Under the pieces are notes generated by a model. That model worked only from the letters and a program-made list of their open reading frames with translations, searched no databases and was not told the origin of the DNA. The position numbers and the translations under genes are program-made. Shown piece after piece: positions 7,085-14,402 of a DNA stretch of 36,707 nucleotides. This DNA is from Paracoccaceae bacterium (GTDB taxonomy: Bacteria; Pseudomonadota; Alphaproteobacteria; Rhodobacterales; Rhodobacteraceae). Each line of letters opens with the position of its first letter. Positions within the stretch are counted from its first letter, which is position 1. The stretch covers positions 1 through 36,707 of the forward strand of contig PUKW01000168.1 of assembly GCA_003550665.1 (NCBI GenBank), in the 5' to 3' direction.

Positions 7085-8647
7085 TCATGACGCCGATTGC
7101 AACGCCGCCCCCGCGCGCGCACGGTTGCGGTTGAAAAGCAGCTTGTTGAGCGCGTTCACATAGGCCTTGGCCGAGGCCACGACCGTGTCGGTATCGGCCG
7201 ACTGACCGGTAAAGACCGTGCCCTCATCCTCGAGCCGGACGCTGACCGTGGCCTGCGCATCCGTGCCCTCGGTGAAGGCGTGGACCTGGTAGAGTTGCAG
7301 CTTGACGTCGTGCGGGTAGAGCGCCTTGACGGCGTTGAAGGTGGCGTCCACGGGGCCGTCGCCGGTGGCCTCGGCGCTGTGCTCGGCACCGTCGATGACG
7401 AGGGTGAGCGCCGCCGTCTGCGGCGACTCGGTGCCGCAGACCACGCGCAGATGTCGCACCTGGATGTAGTCATGCGCGGCGTTGGTGCTGTTGTCGGCCA
7501 TCAGCGCGACGAGGTCCTCGTCATAGACCTCCTTCTTGCGGTCGGCGAGCTCCTTGAAGCGCACGAACACGTCCTTGAGCTGGTTCGCGCCGAGCTCGTA
7601 GCCCAGCTCCGACAGCTTCGCGTTGAGCGCCGCGCGGCCCGAATGCTTGCCCATCACCAGATTCGTCGAGCTCAGCCCGATATCCTCGGGCTTCATGATC
7701 TCGAAGGTCTCGGCATTCTTGAGCACGCCGTCCTGATGGATGCCGGACTCGTGCGCAAACGCGTTCTTGCCGACGATGGCCTTGTTGTACTGCACCGCGA
7801 AGCCCGAGACCGTGGCGACCATGCGGCTGGCCTGCATGATGCGTTTCGTGTCGATGCCCGTGCGGTAGGGCATGATGTCGTTACGCGTGCGCAGCGCCAT
7901 CACCACCTCCTCAAGCGCGGTGTTGCCCGCGCGCTCGCCGAGGCCGTTGATGGTGCACTCGATCTGGCGCGCGCCGGCTTCCACGGCGGCGAGCGCGTTC
8001 GCCGTCGCCATGCCCAGATCGTTGTGGCAATGCGTGGCGAAGACGACCGTGTCGGCCCCCGGCACCCGCTCGCGCAGCATGGTGATGAGAGCGGCGCTCT
8101 CGCGCGGGGCGGTGTAACCGACGGTGTCGGGGATGTTGATCGTCGTCGCGCCCGCCTTTATCGCCGTCTCGACGGTGCGGCACAGGAAGTCATGCTCGGT
8201 GCGGGTGGCGTCCATCGGCGACCACTGCACATTGTCGCACAGGTTGCGCGCATGGGTCACCGTCTCGTCGATGCGCTCGATCATGCGTTCCATGTCGAGC
8301 TCGGTGATGTCGCGATGGGTGGGCGAGGTGCCGATGAAGGTGTGGATGCGCGGGCTTTTCGCGTCGCGCAGGGCCTCCCAGGCGCGGTCGATGTCGGTCG
8401 GGTTGGCGCGGGCGAGGCCGCAGATCGTGGCGTTCTGCGCGAGCTTTGCGATGTCGCGCACCGCCTCGAAATCGCCGATGGAGGCGATCGGAAAGCCCGC
8501 CTCGATGATGTCCACGCCCATCTCGTCGAGCAGCTGCGCGATCTCGAGCTTCTCGTCATGCGACATGGTCGCGCCGGGGGACTGCTCGCCGTCGCGCAGC
8601 GTCGTATCGAAAATCAGGACGCGGTCCTGTTGGGAGCTCTCGGTCAT
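7085..8647 (-). CDS. leuA: 2-isopropylmalate synthase
   Basis: 520-residue enzyme that condenses acetyl-CoA with 2-oxoisovalerate, the first committed step of leucine synthesis. The catalytic HMGL-like TIM barrel begins with FDTTLRDGEQSPGA near residue 14. It continues with the metal-binding HCHNDLGMATANALAAVEAG and the GNTALEEVVMAL helix, then KHSGRAAL of the linker. The C-terminal third (from about 395) is the LeuA dimer domain that binds leucine for feedback inhibition. Length fits the full-length, feedback-regulated type. The ATG at 8647 was chosen because the frame upstream lacks family similarity, and GAGA lies about ten bases before it. A leucine-rich leader ORF and hairpin lie just upstream, which suggests an additional level of control. 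Confidence 0.97.
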   Translation of the reverse strand: MTESSQQDRVLIFDTTLRDGEQSPGATMSHDEKLEIAQLLDEMGVDIIEAGFPIASIGDFEAVRDIAKLAQNATICGLARANPTDIDRAWEALRDAKSPRIHTFIGTSPTHRDITELDMERMIERIDETVTHARNLCDNVQWSPMDATRTEHDFLCRTVETAIKAGATTINIPDTVGYTAPRESAALITMLRERVPGADTVVFATHCHNDLGMATANALAAVEAGARQIECTINGLGERAGNTALEEVVMALRTRNDIMPYRTGIDTKRIMQASRMVATVSGFAVQYNKAIVGKNAFAHESGIHQDGVLKNAETFEIMKPEDIGLSSTNLVMGKHSGRAALNAKLSELGYELGANQLKDVFVRFKELADRKKEVYDEDLVALMADNSTNAAHDYIQVRHLRVVCGTESPQTAALTLVIDGAEHSAEATGDGPVDATFNAVKALYPHDVKLQLYQVHAFTEGTDAQATVSVRLEDEGTVFTGQSADTDTVVASAKAYVNALNKLLFNRNRARAGAALQSAS

Positions 8648-8699
8648 GGTGCTGTCTCGCGGTTGGTCTCTGGAAATGCCGGTGGGCGCATGCGTTCCC

Positions 8700-8728
8700 C
8701 TGAGCGTCGCGCCCGTGGGCACGCTCAG
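8700..8728 (-). promoter_or_regulatory. Hairpin between leader peptide and leuA (candidate attenuator)
   Basis: CTGAGCGT at 8700-8707 is the exact reverse complement of ACGCTCAG at 8721-8728, and the loop contains a further GCC/GGC pairing. On the minus strand the first arm contains the stop codon of the leucine-rich leader ORF, so a ribosome stalled on its Leu codons would leave this arm free or change its pairing. A competing pairing exists between 8684-8689 and 8709-8714 (GGGCGC with GCGCCC). No T tract follows, so control could act on translation or Rho-dependent termination. Function is inferred. Confidence 0.45.
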
Positions 8729-8811
8729 AGGCGGCTAAGGAGCCCGAGCGCCGGCAGCCCGCCCAGTCGGGTGGCCGCGTGCGGTTGCGCGATATCGGCA
8801 ATGCGTTCCAT
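8725..8811 (-). CDS. Putative leucine leader peptide upstream of leuA
   Basis: A 28-codon ORF with an ATG at 8811 and TGA at 8727-8725. Six of the last thirteen residues are leucine, within LGGLPALGLLSRL at the C-terminus, a composition typical of leader peptides that sense charged tRNA-Leu. An in-frame ATG four codons upstream (8823) would add MFLI. No convincing Shine-Dalgarno is visible before either ATG; a weak TATGTT -10-like element at 8824-8819 would allow near-leaderless translation. It ends 77 bases before leuA, and its stop is embedded in the hairpin at 8700-8728. High GC inflates Leu somewhat, so this remains a candidate. Confidence 0.5.
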   Translation of the reverse strand: MERIADIAQPHAATRLGGLPALGLLSRL

Positions 8812-8908
8812 AATCAGAAACATAAGCAAGCCGCGCCGCCGATGAAAGGGCAAATTGACCCGCCGGTGCCGCCCGCTAGCTCAAGGCGCCTGAAAGAGGG
8901 GCAGGCGC

Positions 8909-9583
8909 ATGGTGCAATTCGGTTCGGCATTGGTGATCGGCGCCTCGGGCGGCATCGGCGCGGCGCTCGCAGCGGAGCTTGGCGCGCGTGGCGTGACGGT
9001 GACCGGGCTGTCGCGCAGCGCGGACGGGCTCGACGTGACCGATGCGGGATCCGTCGAGGCTTATCTCGGCGCGCTTGCGGGGCCATATGATCTGATCTTC
9101 GTGGCGACCGGTGCGCTCGAGATCGGCGGGCGGCGCCCGGAGAAAGCGCTCAGGCAGCTCGATGCCGAGGCGCTGATGGCACAGTTCGCGCTCAACGCCA
9201 TCGGCCCCGCGCTGGTGATGCGCCACGCGCCGCGGCTGATGCCGCGCGAGGGCAGGGCAGTGTTCGCGGCGCTGTCGGCGCGGGTGGGGTCGATCGGCGA
9301 TAACGGCTATGGCGGCTGGTATGGCTACCGCGCGGCGAAGGCCGCGCTCAACCAGCTCCTGCACACCGGCGCAATCGAGATCGCGCGCTCGCACCGCGAG
9401 GCCGTCGTCGCGGCCCTGCATCCCGGCACGGTGGCCACACCGCTCACGTCGAAATACGCCGGCCGCCACCCGACCGTGACGCCCGATCACGCCGCCGGGC
9501 GGCTCATCGATGTCGCCGCGTCGCTGACCCCGGCACAGACGGGCGGGTTCTTCGACTATTCCGGCGCGGAAATCCCCTGGTGA
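8909..9583 (+). CDS. Short-chain dehydrogenase/reductase (SDR)
   Basis: 224-residue single-domain oxidoreductase. The NAD(P)-binding motif GASGGIG is at 11-17. The catalytic tetrad can be read as Asn96, Ser123 (FAALSARVG), Tyr140 and Lys144 (GYRAAKAAL). Length is at the short end for classical SDRs and resembles the C-factor/CsgA-like group. The substrate cannot be deduced. The stop overlaps the photolyase start as GTGA, so the two are co-translated. A link to repair or to the photolyase chromophore is possible but only suggested by that coupling. Confidence 0.85.
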   Translation: MVQFGSALVIGASGGIGAALAAELGARGVTVTGLSRSADGLDVTDAGSVEAYLGALAGPYDLIFVATGALEIGGRRPEKALRQLDAEALMAQFALNAIGPALVMRHAPRLMPREGRAVFAALSARVGSIGDNGYGGWYGYRAAKAALNQLLHTGAIEIARSHREAVVAALHPGTVATPLTSKYAGRHPTVTPDHAAGRLIDVAASLTPAQTGGFFDYSGAEIPW

Positions 9584-11118: not shown

Positions 11119-12597
11119 TTACTCGTCCGTGTCGGGGCCGTCGGGGTCCTCGGGCGTTTCCGGGGCCTCGGGGGCCTCGGCGTCGTCGAGGGCGCCGTCC
11201 TCCCAGATCCCGGTCTCCTCGGTGCCGTCGGCAAAGCGCAGTGTTCCGAAACCGTGGCGCTCGCCGTCGCGAAAGCTGCCCTCATAGACATCGCCGCCCG
11301 GATAGGTGGCCACGCCCTGGCCGTGCATCTCGCCGTCGCGCCACTCGCCCTCGTATCTAAAGCCCTGCGGCGTCGCGAGCGTGCCTTCGCCCTCGCGCAC
11401 ACCCTCGAAGAAAGAGCCCTCGTATGTGGTGCCGTCTTCGAAGACGGCCACGCCCTCGCCGTGGCGCTCGCCGGCGCGCCAGCCGCCCTCATAGGTGCTG
11501 CCGTCGGGATAGCTCATCGCCCCGGAGCCATGTGCGCGGCCATCGGCGAAATCGCCCTCATAGACGATGCCGTCTTCGTATTCGGCGCGCCCCGCGCCCT
11601 CGATGATGCCGTCGACCCACTCGCCGTCGTAGCTGCTGCGATCGGCATAGGTGATGGCGCCCTCGCCATGCGCGCGCCCGTCGCGAAAGCCGCCCTCGTA
11701 GACGGCCCCGTCCGGGTAGGTCGCGCGGCCCTCGCCCTCCATGCGCCCCTCGGTCCACTCGCCGACATACTCGAAGCCGTCCTCGCGGTGGTATTCGCCG
11801 TGCCCATGGCGCGTGTCGTCGGCGAATTCGCCCTCATAGACCGAGCCATCGGCATAATCGACGCGCCCGGTGCCGCTGCGCTCGCCATCGGCGAAGCCGC
11901 CTTCGTAGACATCGCCGTCGGGGTCCTCAAGGCGCCCTTCGCCGTGGATGCGCCCCTCGGACCAGTCGCCCTCATACACCAGCCCATCCGCGCCGGTGAG
12001 CCGGCCGGTGCCGTGCGGGCGCCCATCCGCGACGCTGCCCTCGAACACGGCGTCGTCGGGGTAGGTGATGGTCGCCTCGCCCTCTTTCACGCCCTCGACC
12101 CAGCCGCCCTCGTAGCGATAGCCGTCCGGACGTTCCAGAACCCCCTCGCCATGCGGCTTGCCGTCCTCGAAGCTGCCCTCGAAGCGCACATCGTCGGCAT
12201 AGAGCTGCACGCCCTCGCCGGTCATCCGGCCCTCGACCCAGTCGCCCTCATAGGTGCTGCCATCGGTAAAGGTGATGCGGCCGGTGCCGTGGGGACGGCC
12301 CTCGACGAATTCGCCCTCGTAGACTTCGCCATCGGGATAGGTCGCGCGGCCTTCGCCGGTGATCTCGCCATCGCGCCATTCGCCGGTGTATTCGAAGCCG
12401 TTGGGCAGGGTGTAGGTGCCCTCGCCGTGCTGGACGCCGTCGCGGAACGTGCCCTCATAGACGCCGCCATCATCGTATTGACGGGTGACGACCTCGTCAT
12501 CGGCGCTCACCCCCGGCGCCAGTGCGAACCCCGCCAGCGCCAGAGCGACGAGCGCCGTGCCGCGCCGGAGCCTGCGCTTGTCCATGCCTGCCACCAT
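11119..12597 (-). CDS. Exported MORN-repeat protein
   Basis: 492-residue protein with a basic start (MDKRRLRRG), a hydrophobic segment and APGVSA, which reads as a cleavable signal peptide ending near residue 32. Residues 47-460 are 18 uninterrupted 23-residue MORN repeats of the type YEGxF/W..G..HGEG, with a partial nineteenth (ETGIWEDG). The tail is very acidic and Pro-rich (EAPEAPETPEDPDG). MORN repeats form extended beta-hairpin arrays that bind lipids or proteins; no catalytic domain is present. ATG 12597 is preceded by GGGGGAAC; a second ATG at 12585 is also possible and would give a more standard signal peptide. Function is unknown; a periplasmic or outer-surface scaffold is an inference. 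Confidence 0.85.
   Translation of the reverse strand: MVAGMDKRRLRRGTALVALALAGFALAPGVSADDEVVTRQYDDGGVYEGTFRDGVQHGEGTYTLPNGFEYTGEWRDGEITGEGRATYPDGEVYEGEFVEGRPHGTGRITFTDGSTYEGDWVEGRMTGEGVQLYADDVRFEGSFEDGKPHGEGVLERPDGYRYEGGWVEGVKEGEATITYPDDAVFEGSVADGRPHGTGRLTGADGLVYEGDWSEGRIHGEGRLEDPDGDVYEGGFADGERSGTGRVDYADGSVYEGEFADDTRHGHGEYHREDGFEYVGEWTEGRMEGEGRATYPDGAVYEGGFRDGRAHGEGAITYADRSSYDGEWVDGIIEGAGRAEYEDGIVYEGDFADGRAHGSGAMSYPDGSTYEGGWRAGERHGEGVAVFEDGTTYEGSFFEGVREGEGTLATPQGFRYEGEWRDGEMHGQGVATYPGGDVYEGSFRDGERHGFGTLRFADGTEETGIWEDGALDDAEAPEAPETPEDPDGPDTDE
11218..12459 (-). repeat. 18 tandem 69-bp units encoding MORN repeats
   Basis: All 18 units are exactly 23 codons long with no insertion or deletion. The aromatic residue after YEGx alternates Phe and Trp along most of the array (units 1-6 read F,W,F,W,F,W; units 11-18 read W,F,W,F,W,F,W,F). 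The real period is therefore often 46 residues (138 bp). The alternation slips between units 9 and 10, both Phe; unit 7 has Val. Confidence 0.9.
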
Positions 12598-12617
12598 GTT
12601 CCCCCAGTGTCGCCGTC

Positions 12618-12643
12618 GCGCCTGCGCCGCGCGCGGCAGGCGC
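12618..12643. other. Hairpin in the divergent MORN/nadE intergenic region
   Basis: GCGCCTGC at 12618-12625 is the exact reverse complement of GCAGGCGC at 12636-12643, with a GC-only 10-base loop. It sits 20 bases upstream of the MORN start and 100 bases before nadE. It may be a transcript structure or chance in GC-rich DNA. No T tract adjoins it and I assign no function. Confidence 0.3.
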
Positions 12644-12743
12644 CGCGAGGGTATGCGAGCCCCCCGCGGCTGACAAGAGTTTCGCCCCCGGCACTTTTCC
12701 TCGCCCGGCAGTCTGCTAAGACGTGGCGCAAATGAGGGCGCGC

Positions 12744-14402
12744 ATGGCACGACATTTCCGACTGACCCTGGCACAGCTCAACCCGACCGTGGGCGCCATC
12801 GACGCCAATGCCGCCCGCGCCCGCGAGGCCTGGGCCGCGGCGCGCGCGGCGGGGGCCGACATGCTCGCGCTGCCGGAGATGTTCGTGACCGGCTACCAGA
12901 CGCAGGACCTGGTGACCAAGCCCGCCTTCGCCGAGCATGCGATGCGCGCCATTGCCGATCTCGCCGCCGATTGCGCCGACGGCCCCGCGATCGGAATCGG
13001 CGGACCGCTGCGCGCGGATGGGCACCTCTACAATGCCTGGCACGTTCTTTCGGGCGGGCAGGTGCATGTGGTGCTGCGCAAGCACAAGCTGCCCAACGAC
13101 TCGGTGTTCGACGAGTGCCGGCTCTATACGTCCGGCGACATCAGCGGCCCCTACGGCATCGGCGCCGCGCGCATCGGAACGCCGATCTGCGAGGATGCCT
13201 GGAGCGAGGACGTGCCCGAGGCGCAGGCCGAGTCGGGCGCGGAGATGCTCGTGGTGCCCAATGGCTCGCCCTATTCGCGCGGCCGCCATGACACGCGCAT
13301 GGGCCACATGGTCGCGCGGGTCGTCGAGACGGAGCTGCCGCTCGTCTATCTCAACATGGTCGGCGGCCAGGATGACCAGGTCTTCGACGGGGCGAGCTTC
13401 GTGCTCAATCCGGGCGGCCAGCTCGCGGTGCAGCTGCCGCCCTTCGACGAGGCGATCGCGCATGTCGATTTCGCCGATGACGGCGATGGCTGGCGCGCGC
13501 AGCAAGGCGAACGCGCCAGCCTCGGCGACGCGATCGAGCTCGATTACCGCGCCATGGTCGAAGGCACGCGCGACTATGTGCGCAAGTCGGGTTTCTCGAA
13601 GGTGCTGCTGGGGCTGTCGGGCGGCGTGGACAGCGCGATCGTGGCGGCGATCGCGGCGGATGCGCTGGGTCCGGAAAACGTGCGCTGCGTTCTGCTGCCG
13701 TCCGAATTCACCAGCCGCGAGTCGCTCGAGGACGCGGCCGAGGTGGCATCGCGGCTCGGCTGCCGGCTCGACGAGCTGCCCATCGACAGCGCGCGCGCCG
13801 CGGTGACCGACACGCTCGCGCCGCTCTTTGCCGGGCGCGACGCCGATGTCACCGAGGAGAACCTGCAATCGCGGCTGCGCGGGCTGATGCTGATGGCGCT
13901 GTCGAACAAGTTTGGCGAGATGCTGCTGACCACCGGCAACAAGTCCGAGATCGCCGTCGGCTACGCCACGATCTATGGCGACATGAATGGCGGCTACAAC
14001 CCGATCAAGGATCTCTACAAGACGCGCGTCTTCGCCACCTGCCGCTGGCGCAACGGGGCGCATCGCCCCTGGATGGCGGCCCCGGCGGGCGAGGTGATCG
14101 CGCACCGCGTCATCGCCAAGCCCCCCTCCGCCGAGCTCGCCGCCGGGCAGCGCGACGAGGACAGCCTGCCGCCCTATGATGTGCTCGATGCGATCCTCGA
14201 AGGGCTCGTGGAGCGCGATGCCTCCGTCGCGGAGCTCGTCGCCGAGGGGCACCCGCGCGAGACCGTCAAGGCGGTGGAGCGGCTGCTCTACGTCTCGGAA
14301 TGGAAGCGGTTCCAGTCCGCGCCGGGCACGCGGCTGACGCGCCGCGCCTTCTGGCTCGACCGGCGGTATCCGATGGTCAATCGCTGGCGCGACGGGAGCT
14401 GA
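12744..14402 (+). CDS. nadE: Glutamine-dependent NAD+ synthetase
   Basis: 552-residue two-domain enzyme that amidates nicotinic acid adenine dinucleotide to NAD+, the last step of NAD synthesis. The N-terminal nitrilase-like glutaminase domain supplies ammonia; its Glu-Lys-Cys triad reads as Glu45 (LALPEMF), Lys115 (RKHKLPN) and Cys149 (GTPICED). The C-terminal synthetase domain has the PP-loop SGGVDS at 292-297 and TTGNKSEIAVGYATIYGDM further on. ATG 12744 is preferred over a GTG at 12723 and an ATG at 12732 because GAGGG lies six bases before it and the N-terminus then matches the family. Divergent from the MORN gene. Confidence 0.96.
   Translation: MARHFRLTLAQLNPTVGAIDANAARAREAWAAARAAGADMLALPEMFVTGYQTQDLVTKPAFAEHAMRAIADLAADCADGPAIGIGGPLRADGHLYNAWHVLSGGQVHVVLRKHKLPNDSVFDECRLYTSGDISGPYGIGAARIGTPICEDAWSEDVPEAQAESGAEMLVVPNGSPYSRGRHDTRMGHMVARVVETELPLVYLNMVGGQDDQVFDGASFVLNPGGQLAVQLPPFDEAIAHVDFADDGDGWRAQQGERASLGDAIELDYRAMVEGTRDYVRKSGFSKVLLGLSGGVDSAIVAAIAADALGPENVRCVLLPSEFTSRESLEDAAEVASRLGCRLDELPIDSARAAVTDTLAPLFAGRDADVTEENLQSRLRGLMLMALSNKFGEMLLTTGNKSEIAVGYATIYGDMNGGYNPIKDLYKTRVFATCRWRNGAHRPWMAAPAGEVIAHRVIAKPPSAELAAGQRDEDSLPPYDVLDAILEGLVERDASVAELVAEGHPRETVKAVERLLYVSEWKRFQSAPGTRLTRRAFWLDRRYPMVNRWRDGS

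Follow-up and report, generated by a model that had tools for sequence, protein, structure and literature searches.

The window, the whole stretch of 36,707 nt that was analysed, comes from contig PUKW01000168.1 of a Paracoccaceae bacterium (Rhodobacteraceae, Alphaproteobacteria). Its leuA gene lies on the minus strand. The leuA product matched NF002087 with 840 bits compared to a cut-off of 729 and was assigned as a 2-isopropylmalate synthase. This leuA is of the bacterial type, and its TIGR00973 score was also above the cut-off of that model. A divergent SDR gene was found opposite leuA (8909-9583, plus strand), and the leader region lies between these two genes. Adjoining the SDR gene and likewise divergent from leuA is a gene for a deoxyribodipyrimidine photolyase-related protein (PF04244; 9580-11112, plus strand), and a 551-codon protein with 12 MORN repeat matches is encoded at 11119-12774 on the minus strand. 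The features of leuA and its leader region are as follows.

7085-8647, minus strand: leuA, 2-isopropylmalate synthase (520 aa), the predicted regulated gene, with a weak Shine-Dalgarno sequence
8684-8690, minus strand: P2 partner UGCGCCC
8697-8707, minus strand: 3' arm of the P1 hairpin, ACGCUCAGGGG
8708-8714, minus strand: P2 arm GGGCGCG in the P1 loop, forming a predicted pseudoknot
8721-8731, minus strand: 5' arm of P1, CCUCUGAGCGU, which holds the stop codon UGA
8725-8811, minus strand: leader ORF of 28 codons plus TGA (ATG 8811, TGA 8727-8725), probably leaderless
8734-8741, minus strand: UCCUUAGC, the P3 5' arm in relatives (partner GCUAAGGA), for which no partner was found in the window species
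8737-8748, minus strand: putative control codons CTC GGG CTC CTT (codons -7 to -4)
8819-8824, minus strand: -10 box TATGTT, 7 nt 5' of the leader ATG, with a predicted start of transcription at about 8811
8842-8847, minus strand: putative -35-like element TTTCAT, separated by 17 nt from the -10 box, read by eye from the sequence

The frame of leuA is open upstream as far as a GTG at 8722 within P1 (545-codon ORF; window positions 8648-8722), so automatic annotation may stretch leuA across the leader.

Translation from the ATG at 8811 on the minus strand gave the leader peptide MERIADIAQPHAATRLGGLPALGLLSRL (28 aa), whose final 13 residues, LGGLPALGLLSRL, include six Leu. The preliminary description of this DNA had reported such a 28-codon ORF with six Leu in thirteen residues, and this was borne out on the minus strand (8811-8725). 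The reading frame ends with ...RLGGLPALGLLSRL and then TGA at 8727-8725, and 77 nt lie between the leader stop and the leuA ATG at 8647. Pfam and NCBIfam searches with four leader peptides found no family.

Leaders of Rhodobacteraceae, the family of the window species, were collected with a regex and kept for the Leu-position counts if at least three Leu were present among the last 10 codons. The regex kept 127 of 134 family loci, 117 of them unique; among the seven missed, six have a covariance-model match and one (L121) has none. In 116 of the 117 unique loci, leuA was found at most 900 nt downstream of the leader. Leu was encoded at codon -4 in all 117 leaders, at -5 in 108, at -6 in 111, at -7 in 99, and at -1 in 95. 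At codons -7 and -6, all four bases occurred at the third position, and CT mostly stayed. Codon -4 was CTT or CTA in 113 of the 117 leaders. Among the 4180 Leu codons of the corresponding leuA ORFs, these two made up 8.1% and CTG 61%. The P3 pairing described below may contribute to the choice at codon -4. The leader ORF is predicted to be translated, because its frame, stop, and Leu identity are preserved despite variation at the third positions.

A conserved promoter-like sequence precedes the leader ORF. The motif TA...T was present 6-8 nt 5' of the ATG in 74 of 110 leaders compared to 57 of 8669 other ATGs of the same family loci, a count in which the in-frame ATG with the best -10 box was chosen per leader, favouring the leaders somewhat. 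The commonest leader -10 box was TATAGT. As a general rule, a short spacing between a -10 box and AUG means that transcription begins at or beside that AUG. Since the box lies 6-8 nt before the leader ATG, transcription should begin at or beside the leader AUG, and the conserved box suggests that the leader mRNA is leaderless in Rhodobacteraceae. The preliminary description had set a leuA transcript start downstream of 8725 against its proposal; the conserved promoter-like sequence is instead located upstream of the leader ORF, as read from the sequence only. An upstream ATG at 8823, which would give a 32-codon version, was rejected as the start: it forms part of the predicted -10 box (8824-8819), which makes its presence on the transcript unlikely. 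The -35 region of many relatives is CTTTTC- or CTTTCC-like and not TTGACA, which suggests a particular sigma factor or activator.

The leader stop codon is embedded in hairpin P1, whose stem consists of 11 bp including one G.U pair (8731-8721 with 8707-8697). A hairpin with the UGA in its 5' arm, 77 nt before leuA, had been correctly recognised in the preliminary description, but its stem had been given as 8 bp. Covariation of P1 was analyzed in a class-wide alignment (A2) of 24 class and 20 family sequences. Seven of 10 pairs changed on both sides and none of 500 shuffles matched this; 95% of cells paired, a percentage that is inflated because the class rows were picked by helix search, whereas the double changes are less affected.

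The 6-bp pairing of 8684-8689 with 8709-8714 had been taken for a competitor of the hairpin. However, positions 8714-8709 are within the apical loop of P1, so their pairing with 8689-8684 joins the loop to downstream sequence and makes an H-type pseudoknot, P2. For the P2, P3, and U-tract tests, 111 of the 117 loci were used, those with leuA at most 300 nt away and an in-frame AUG. The best P2 helix had 5-11 bp in all 111 family loci, and the own partners reached a total of 2228.5 compared to no more than 2075.5 in 5000 swaps, which ignore kinship. Among the 104 of 111 loci with the core motif, the central core pair was C-G in 88, U-A in 8, U-G in 7, and C-A in 1. The pair next to it was formed in 72 of the 104 loci, as C-G in 33 and as G-C in 32. 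Outside Rhodobacteraceae, P2 was unsupported in the 25 class loci tested (18520 of 20000 swaps as good, P1 required), and the P1 loop can fold there as a simple hairpin. The pseudoknot thus looks like a Rhodobacteraceae addition.

The spread of the element was analyzed with covariance models. Model R1, consisting of P1 and its flanks and built from 28 loci, gave one match each in 287 of 295 Rhodobacteraceae genomes (286 of 294 genera), 26 of these 287 having supplied training sequences; the other eight family genomes gave no match. Relatives matched by R1 include Rhodovulum, Paracoccus, Roseovarius, Jannaschia, and Rhodobacter. In a set of 80 loci, R1 matched 75 and not L121, L128, L132, L133, or L135, of which L132 and L133 contain only a short upstream stretch. 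In the family member L149 (G033), the region preceding leuA yielded no element.

A broader model, R2, matched 84 of 289 Alphaproteobacteria genomes at E ≤ 0.01, 19 of these 84 being in its training set. In a phylum-wide sample, 64 of 299 genomes matched and all 64 were Alphaproteobacteria; the share of the 299 from outside the class is not given. The best 26 of the 84 class loci, all non-family, were each immediately followed by a LeuA-type gene (recognised by motif in 20 and by a wider motif in 6), and 9 of these 26 were outside the R2 training set. Some weak R1 matches in the class were located away from leuA, namely L169, L177, L180, and L181, which showed no leuA motif. Matches outside the family include Bradyrhizobium, Afipia, and Salinarimonas, as well as a weak one in Thalassospira (E 0.014), and in Caulobacter and Phenylobacterium the pattern was seen by eye only, without a model match. 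The check for conservation in relatives that had been proposed came out in favour of the leader: the ORF, the stop position, and the pairing arms are kept with compensatory changes. On these counts, what precedes leuA is a real, widely conserved predicted regulatory leader.

With the window and 20 family loci, Rfam 15 returned no family at gathering score, and at E up to 10 the window region and L012 each gave one sub-threshold hit. A T-box, a leu leader, a riboswitch, or another Rfam family was rejected at the same gathering score. In the literature searched, LEU elements came up in a single paper, on Actinobacteria (PMC1262725), and no alphaproteobacterial leuA element of this kind was found; an earlier report elsewhere is possible.

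A further helix, P3, was found in relatives; it joins the last Leu-codon bases, UCCUUAGC (-13 to -6), to GCUAAGGA in the stretch preceding leuA. Covariants of this helix were UCCUAAGCC with GGCUUAGGA (L093) and CUACUAAGC with GCUUAGUAG (L076), and P3 of Paracoccus (L092) forms a 13-bp helix. Across the 111 family loci, the own partners outscored all 10000 swaps, which ignore kinship. Strong P3 (score of at least 16) was present in 54 of the 111 loci compared to 21.6 expected from swaps, and is confined to about half of the family loci. Perfect-helix scores set the own partners apart from swapped ones, unlike duplex energies, which separated them weakly: 11 of 111 loci fell in the best 5%, and with the other scoring 23 and 21 of 111 fell in the best 10%. 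For 25 class loci from outside the family, 1 of 20000 swaps was as good (P1 required; swaps ignore kinship). Within the 54 strong family loci, the P3 3' arm ended 14-24 nt before the AUG in 39, beside the Shine-Dalgarno sequence and off it, and 6-12 nt before the AUG in 9. Outside the family, the arm can cover the Shine-Dalgarno sequence; in L206, for example, UGGUCCUUCG is paired with CGAAGGACCA, which is located 5 nt upstream of the ATG.

A gene for a cupin-domain protein (118 codons in loci that cover its full length) was observed between the leader and leuA in L022, L058, L084, L086, L154, and L158, and by eye in L026 and L118. L084 failed the regex and was left out of P3 scoring. In all five scored cupin loci, P3 (8-10 bp) was positioned 5-10 nt before the cupin start, at the cupin ribosome-binding site. 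That P3 follows the first gene, cupin included, is the best single argument for P3.

The computational support comprises the ORF, its Leu codons, the stop within P1, P1 itself, P2 in the family, P3 in many relatives, the promoter-like sequence, and the lack of a U-tract in the family. With good confidence, we interpret the element as a leucine-responsive, ribosome-mediated translational attenuator of leuA that would work without a terminator. Transcription would begin at or next to the leader AUG, as the conserved -10 box indicates. The Leu codons before the stop would double as the P3 5' arm, and the 3' arm would be supplied by the ribosome-binding region of whichever structural gene comes first. 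P1, which holds the stop and would be closed by P2 in Rhodobacteraceae, would bring the P3 arms together. With ample charged tRNA-Leu, the ribosome would reach the UGA and leave, so that P3 could shut the ribosome-binding region and translation of leuA would be low. Under leucine shortage, the ribosome would stall on the Leu codons and cover the P3 5' arm, and the region would stay open for the translation of leuA. We infer the stalling, the leaderless start, and the direction of control. A leucine leader peptide without a terminator, acting probably on leuA translation, had already been put forward in the preliminary description. This gained support, with the pairing between the Leu codons and the ribosome-binding region clear in many relatives and not demonstrable in the window species.

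In the window, P3 had an anchored score of 12, which was equalled by 79% of swaps, and no base stem of this kind was found. The P3 duplex of the window (L001) ranked at 0.53 and 0.35 among swaps, and at 0.13 with a wider stretch. P3 was also absent in L002, from the same genus (G001), and in L003, and the same-genus L006 and L011 keep it. The window leuA Shine-Dalgarno sequence is weak, with 89% of the 111 loci being as strong or stronger. The last switch step may be weakened or done otherwise in the window species, since it combines no demonstrable P3 with a weak Shine-Dalgarno sequence. A switch that is decaying or rewired in the window lineage, leaving leuA weakly controlled there, is possible but tentative. 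The missing P3, the weak Shine-Dalgarno sequence, and the loss in L002 beside its retention in L006 and L011 point to such a decay, but the window species retains intact versions of the leader, the stop, P1, P2, and the promoter-like sequence. A GC-rich substitute pairing is also possible, which would argue against decay: the wider duplex ranks were 0.13 for L001 and 0.25 for L002, and the ribosome-binding region of L002 prefers its own arm (rank 0.04). A search for a P3 substitute in the window lineage gave no convincing candidate, and the window's own duplex did not stand out from swaps; UGCCGG with CCGGCA and GGGCUC with GAGCUC were seen, and a bulged CUCGGG with CCGCGAG was scored within the duplex. 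Decay or rewiring in this lineage would be compatible with translational attenuation in its relatives.

Transcription attenuation, in which stalling refolds the RNA and transcription ends before leuA at an intrinsic or Rho-dependent terminator, is unlikely. It would be in keeping with the Leu codons of a leader peptide whose stop coincides with a stable hairpin, as in E. coli leu (PMC6123439). However, in all 111 loci, which come from the family, five consecutive U were absent within 60 nt of the 3' arm of P1, and an intrinsic terminator in Rhodobacteraceae was rejected on this count. The lack of a T tract noted in the preliminary description therefore extends to all of these loci. Moreover, it is the ribosome-binding region that covaries with the Leu codons, namely that of the cupin gene in loci where the cupin gene comes first.

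An RNA that binds a protein or a ligand, with the ORF being incidental, appears quite improbable. This reading would be similar to the proposal for the actinobacterial LEU element, for which Seliverstov et al. (2005) preferred a binding protein (PMC1262725). Among family members, the sequence CUUAGC.GCCUCUGAGCGUGCC is nearly invariant, perhaps more so than pairing would demand. On the other hand, the frame, stop, and Leu identity are preserved despite third-position variation, rare Leu codons are chosen, and the promoter-like sequence is placed at the ORF start. A chance hairpin and ORF in GC-rich intergenic DNA, with which the whole-region folding energy of the window would agree in being no better than that of shuffles (z -0.28), is hardly credible given the matches in 287 of 295 family genomes and the covariation of the helices.

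The proposed translational attenuation by this leader was compared to known systems. The leuA of Actinobacteria is of another type than the bacterial-type leuA found here. Two Streptomyces plasmid leuA paralogues showed no element of this kind by eye. The LEU element of Actinobacteria, as described by Seliverstov et al. (2005; PMC1262725), also has a leader ORF with a run of Leu codons and a pseudoknot upstream of leuA, and its base stem pairs the Leu run with the leuA Shine-Dalgarno box. Such a base stem was found in many relatives and not in the window species, and the predicted pseudoknot is present in both the window and the family. The elements of the relatives look as if they were built to work like the LEU element. 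In contrast to it, the present element occurs in Alphaproteobacteria before a bacterial-type leuA, its stop codon lies inside P1, and its leader is apparently leaderless in the family; outside Rhodobacteraceae, moreover, the pseudoknot is unsupported and the P1 loop can be a simple hairpin. Because the base stem was not found in the window species and common descent with the actinobacterial elements is no more than a possibility, the window element was not filed as a LEU element member. Leader mutations of Streptomyces coelicolor leuA had effects inconsistent with classical attenuation, and the authors of the LEU element proposed a binding protein (PMC1262725).

Like the present element, the enterobacterial leu attenuator (leuL) precedes leuA and has a leader that encodes 28 residues and contains Leu codons, with a hairpin following the control codons (PMC6123439). 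In contrast to leuL, the 111 family loci showed no U-tract, no antiterminator was recognised, and the Leu codons pair with the ribosome-binding region. The rnTrpL/peTrpL system of Sinorhizobium meliloti (PMC10117765) likewise has a leader ORF starting from the 5' AUG of the transcript before an amino-acid gene in an alphaproteobacterium. It differs in that it responds to Trp and is a transcription attenuator yielding an sRNA (PMC10117765).

A broader proposal, for which our confidence is evenly divided, is that an unnamed RNA family found across Alphaproteobacteria controls leuA translation without a terminator. The Leu codons of its leader, leaderless at least in Rhodobacteraceae, would serve as an anti-Shine-Dalgarno sequence, one stalled ribosome would uncover the site, and the Rhodobacteraceae pseudoknot would have led to a LEU-like layout by convergence or transfer. 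If this is true, a large share of Rhodobacteraceae and a substantial fraction of the remaining Alphaproteobacteria would switch their leucine synthesis through an RNA element that is absent from the Rfam 15 families and undescribed in the literature searched. The design would be compact, with the sensing codons and the anti-Shine-Dalgarno sequence being the same bases. It would also reopen the question of the actinobacterial LEU element, whose mechanism was left unsettled by its discoverers (PMC1262725). Since natural covariants and natural losses, such as that in the window, exist among Alphaproteobacteria, attenuation is directly testable in easy hosts, e.g., Rhodobacter and Paracoccus.

Two further observations were made on the leader ORFs. 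Leader peptides often share their N-terminal residues as well (MTRxxHI...); HI falls within residues 5-8 in 53 of the 110 leaders, and the window has DI. This conservation, which the Leu switch leaves unexplained, may serve leaderless initiation or a function of the peptide. In class loci of other families (L162, L166, L171, L174, and others), the control codons were CTT CGA CTT (Leu-Arg-Leu), with the bases CUUCGACUUA recurring between loci.
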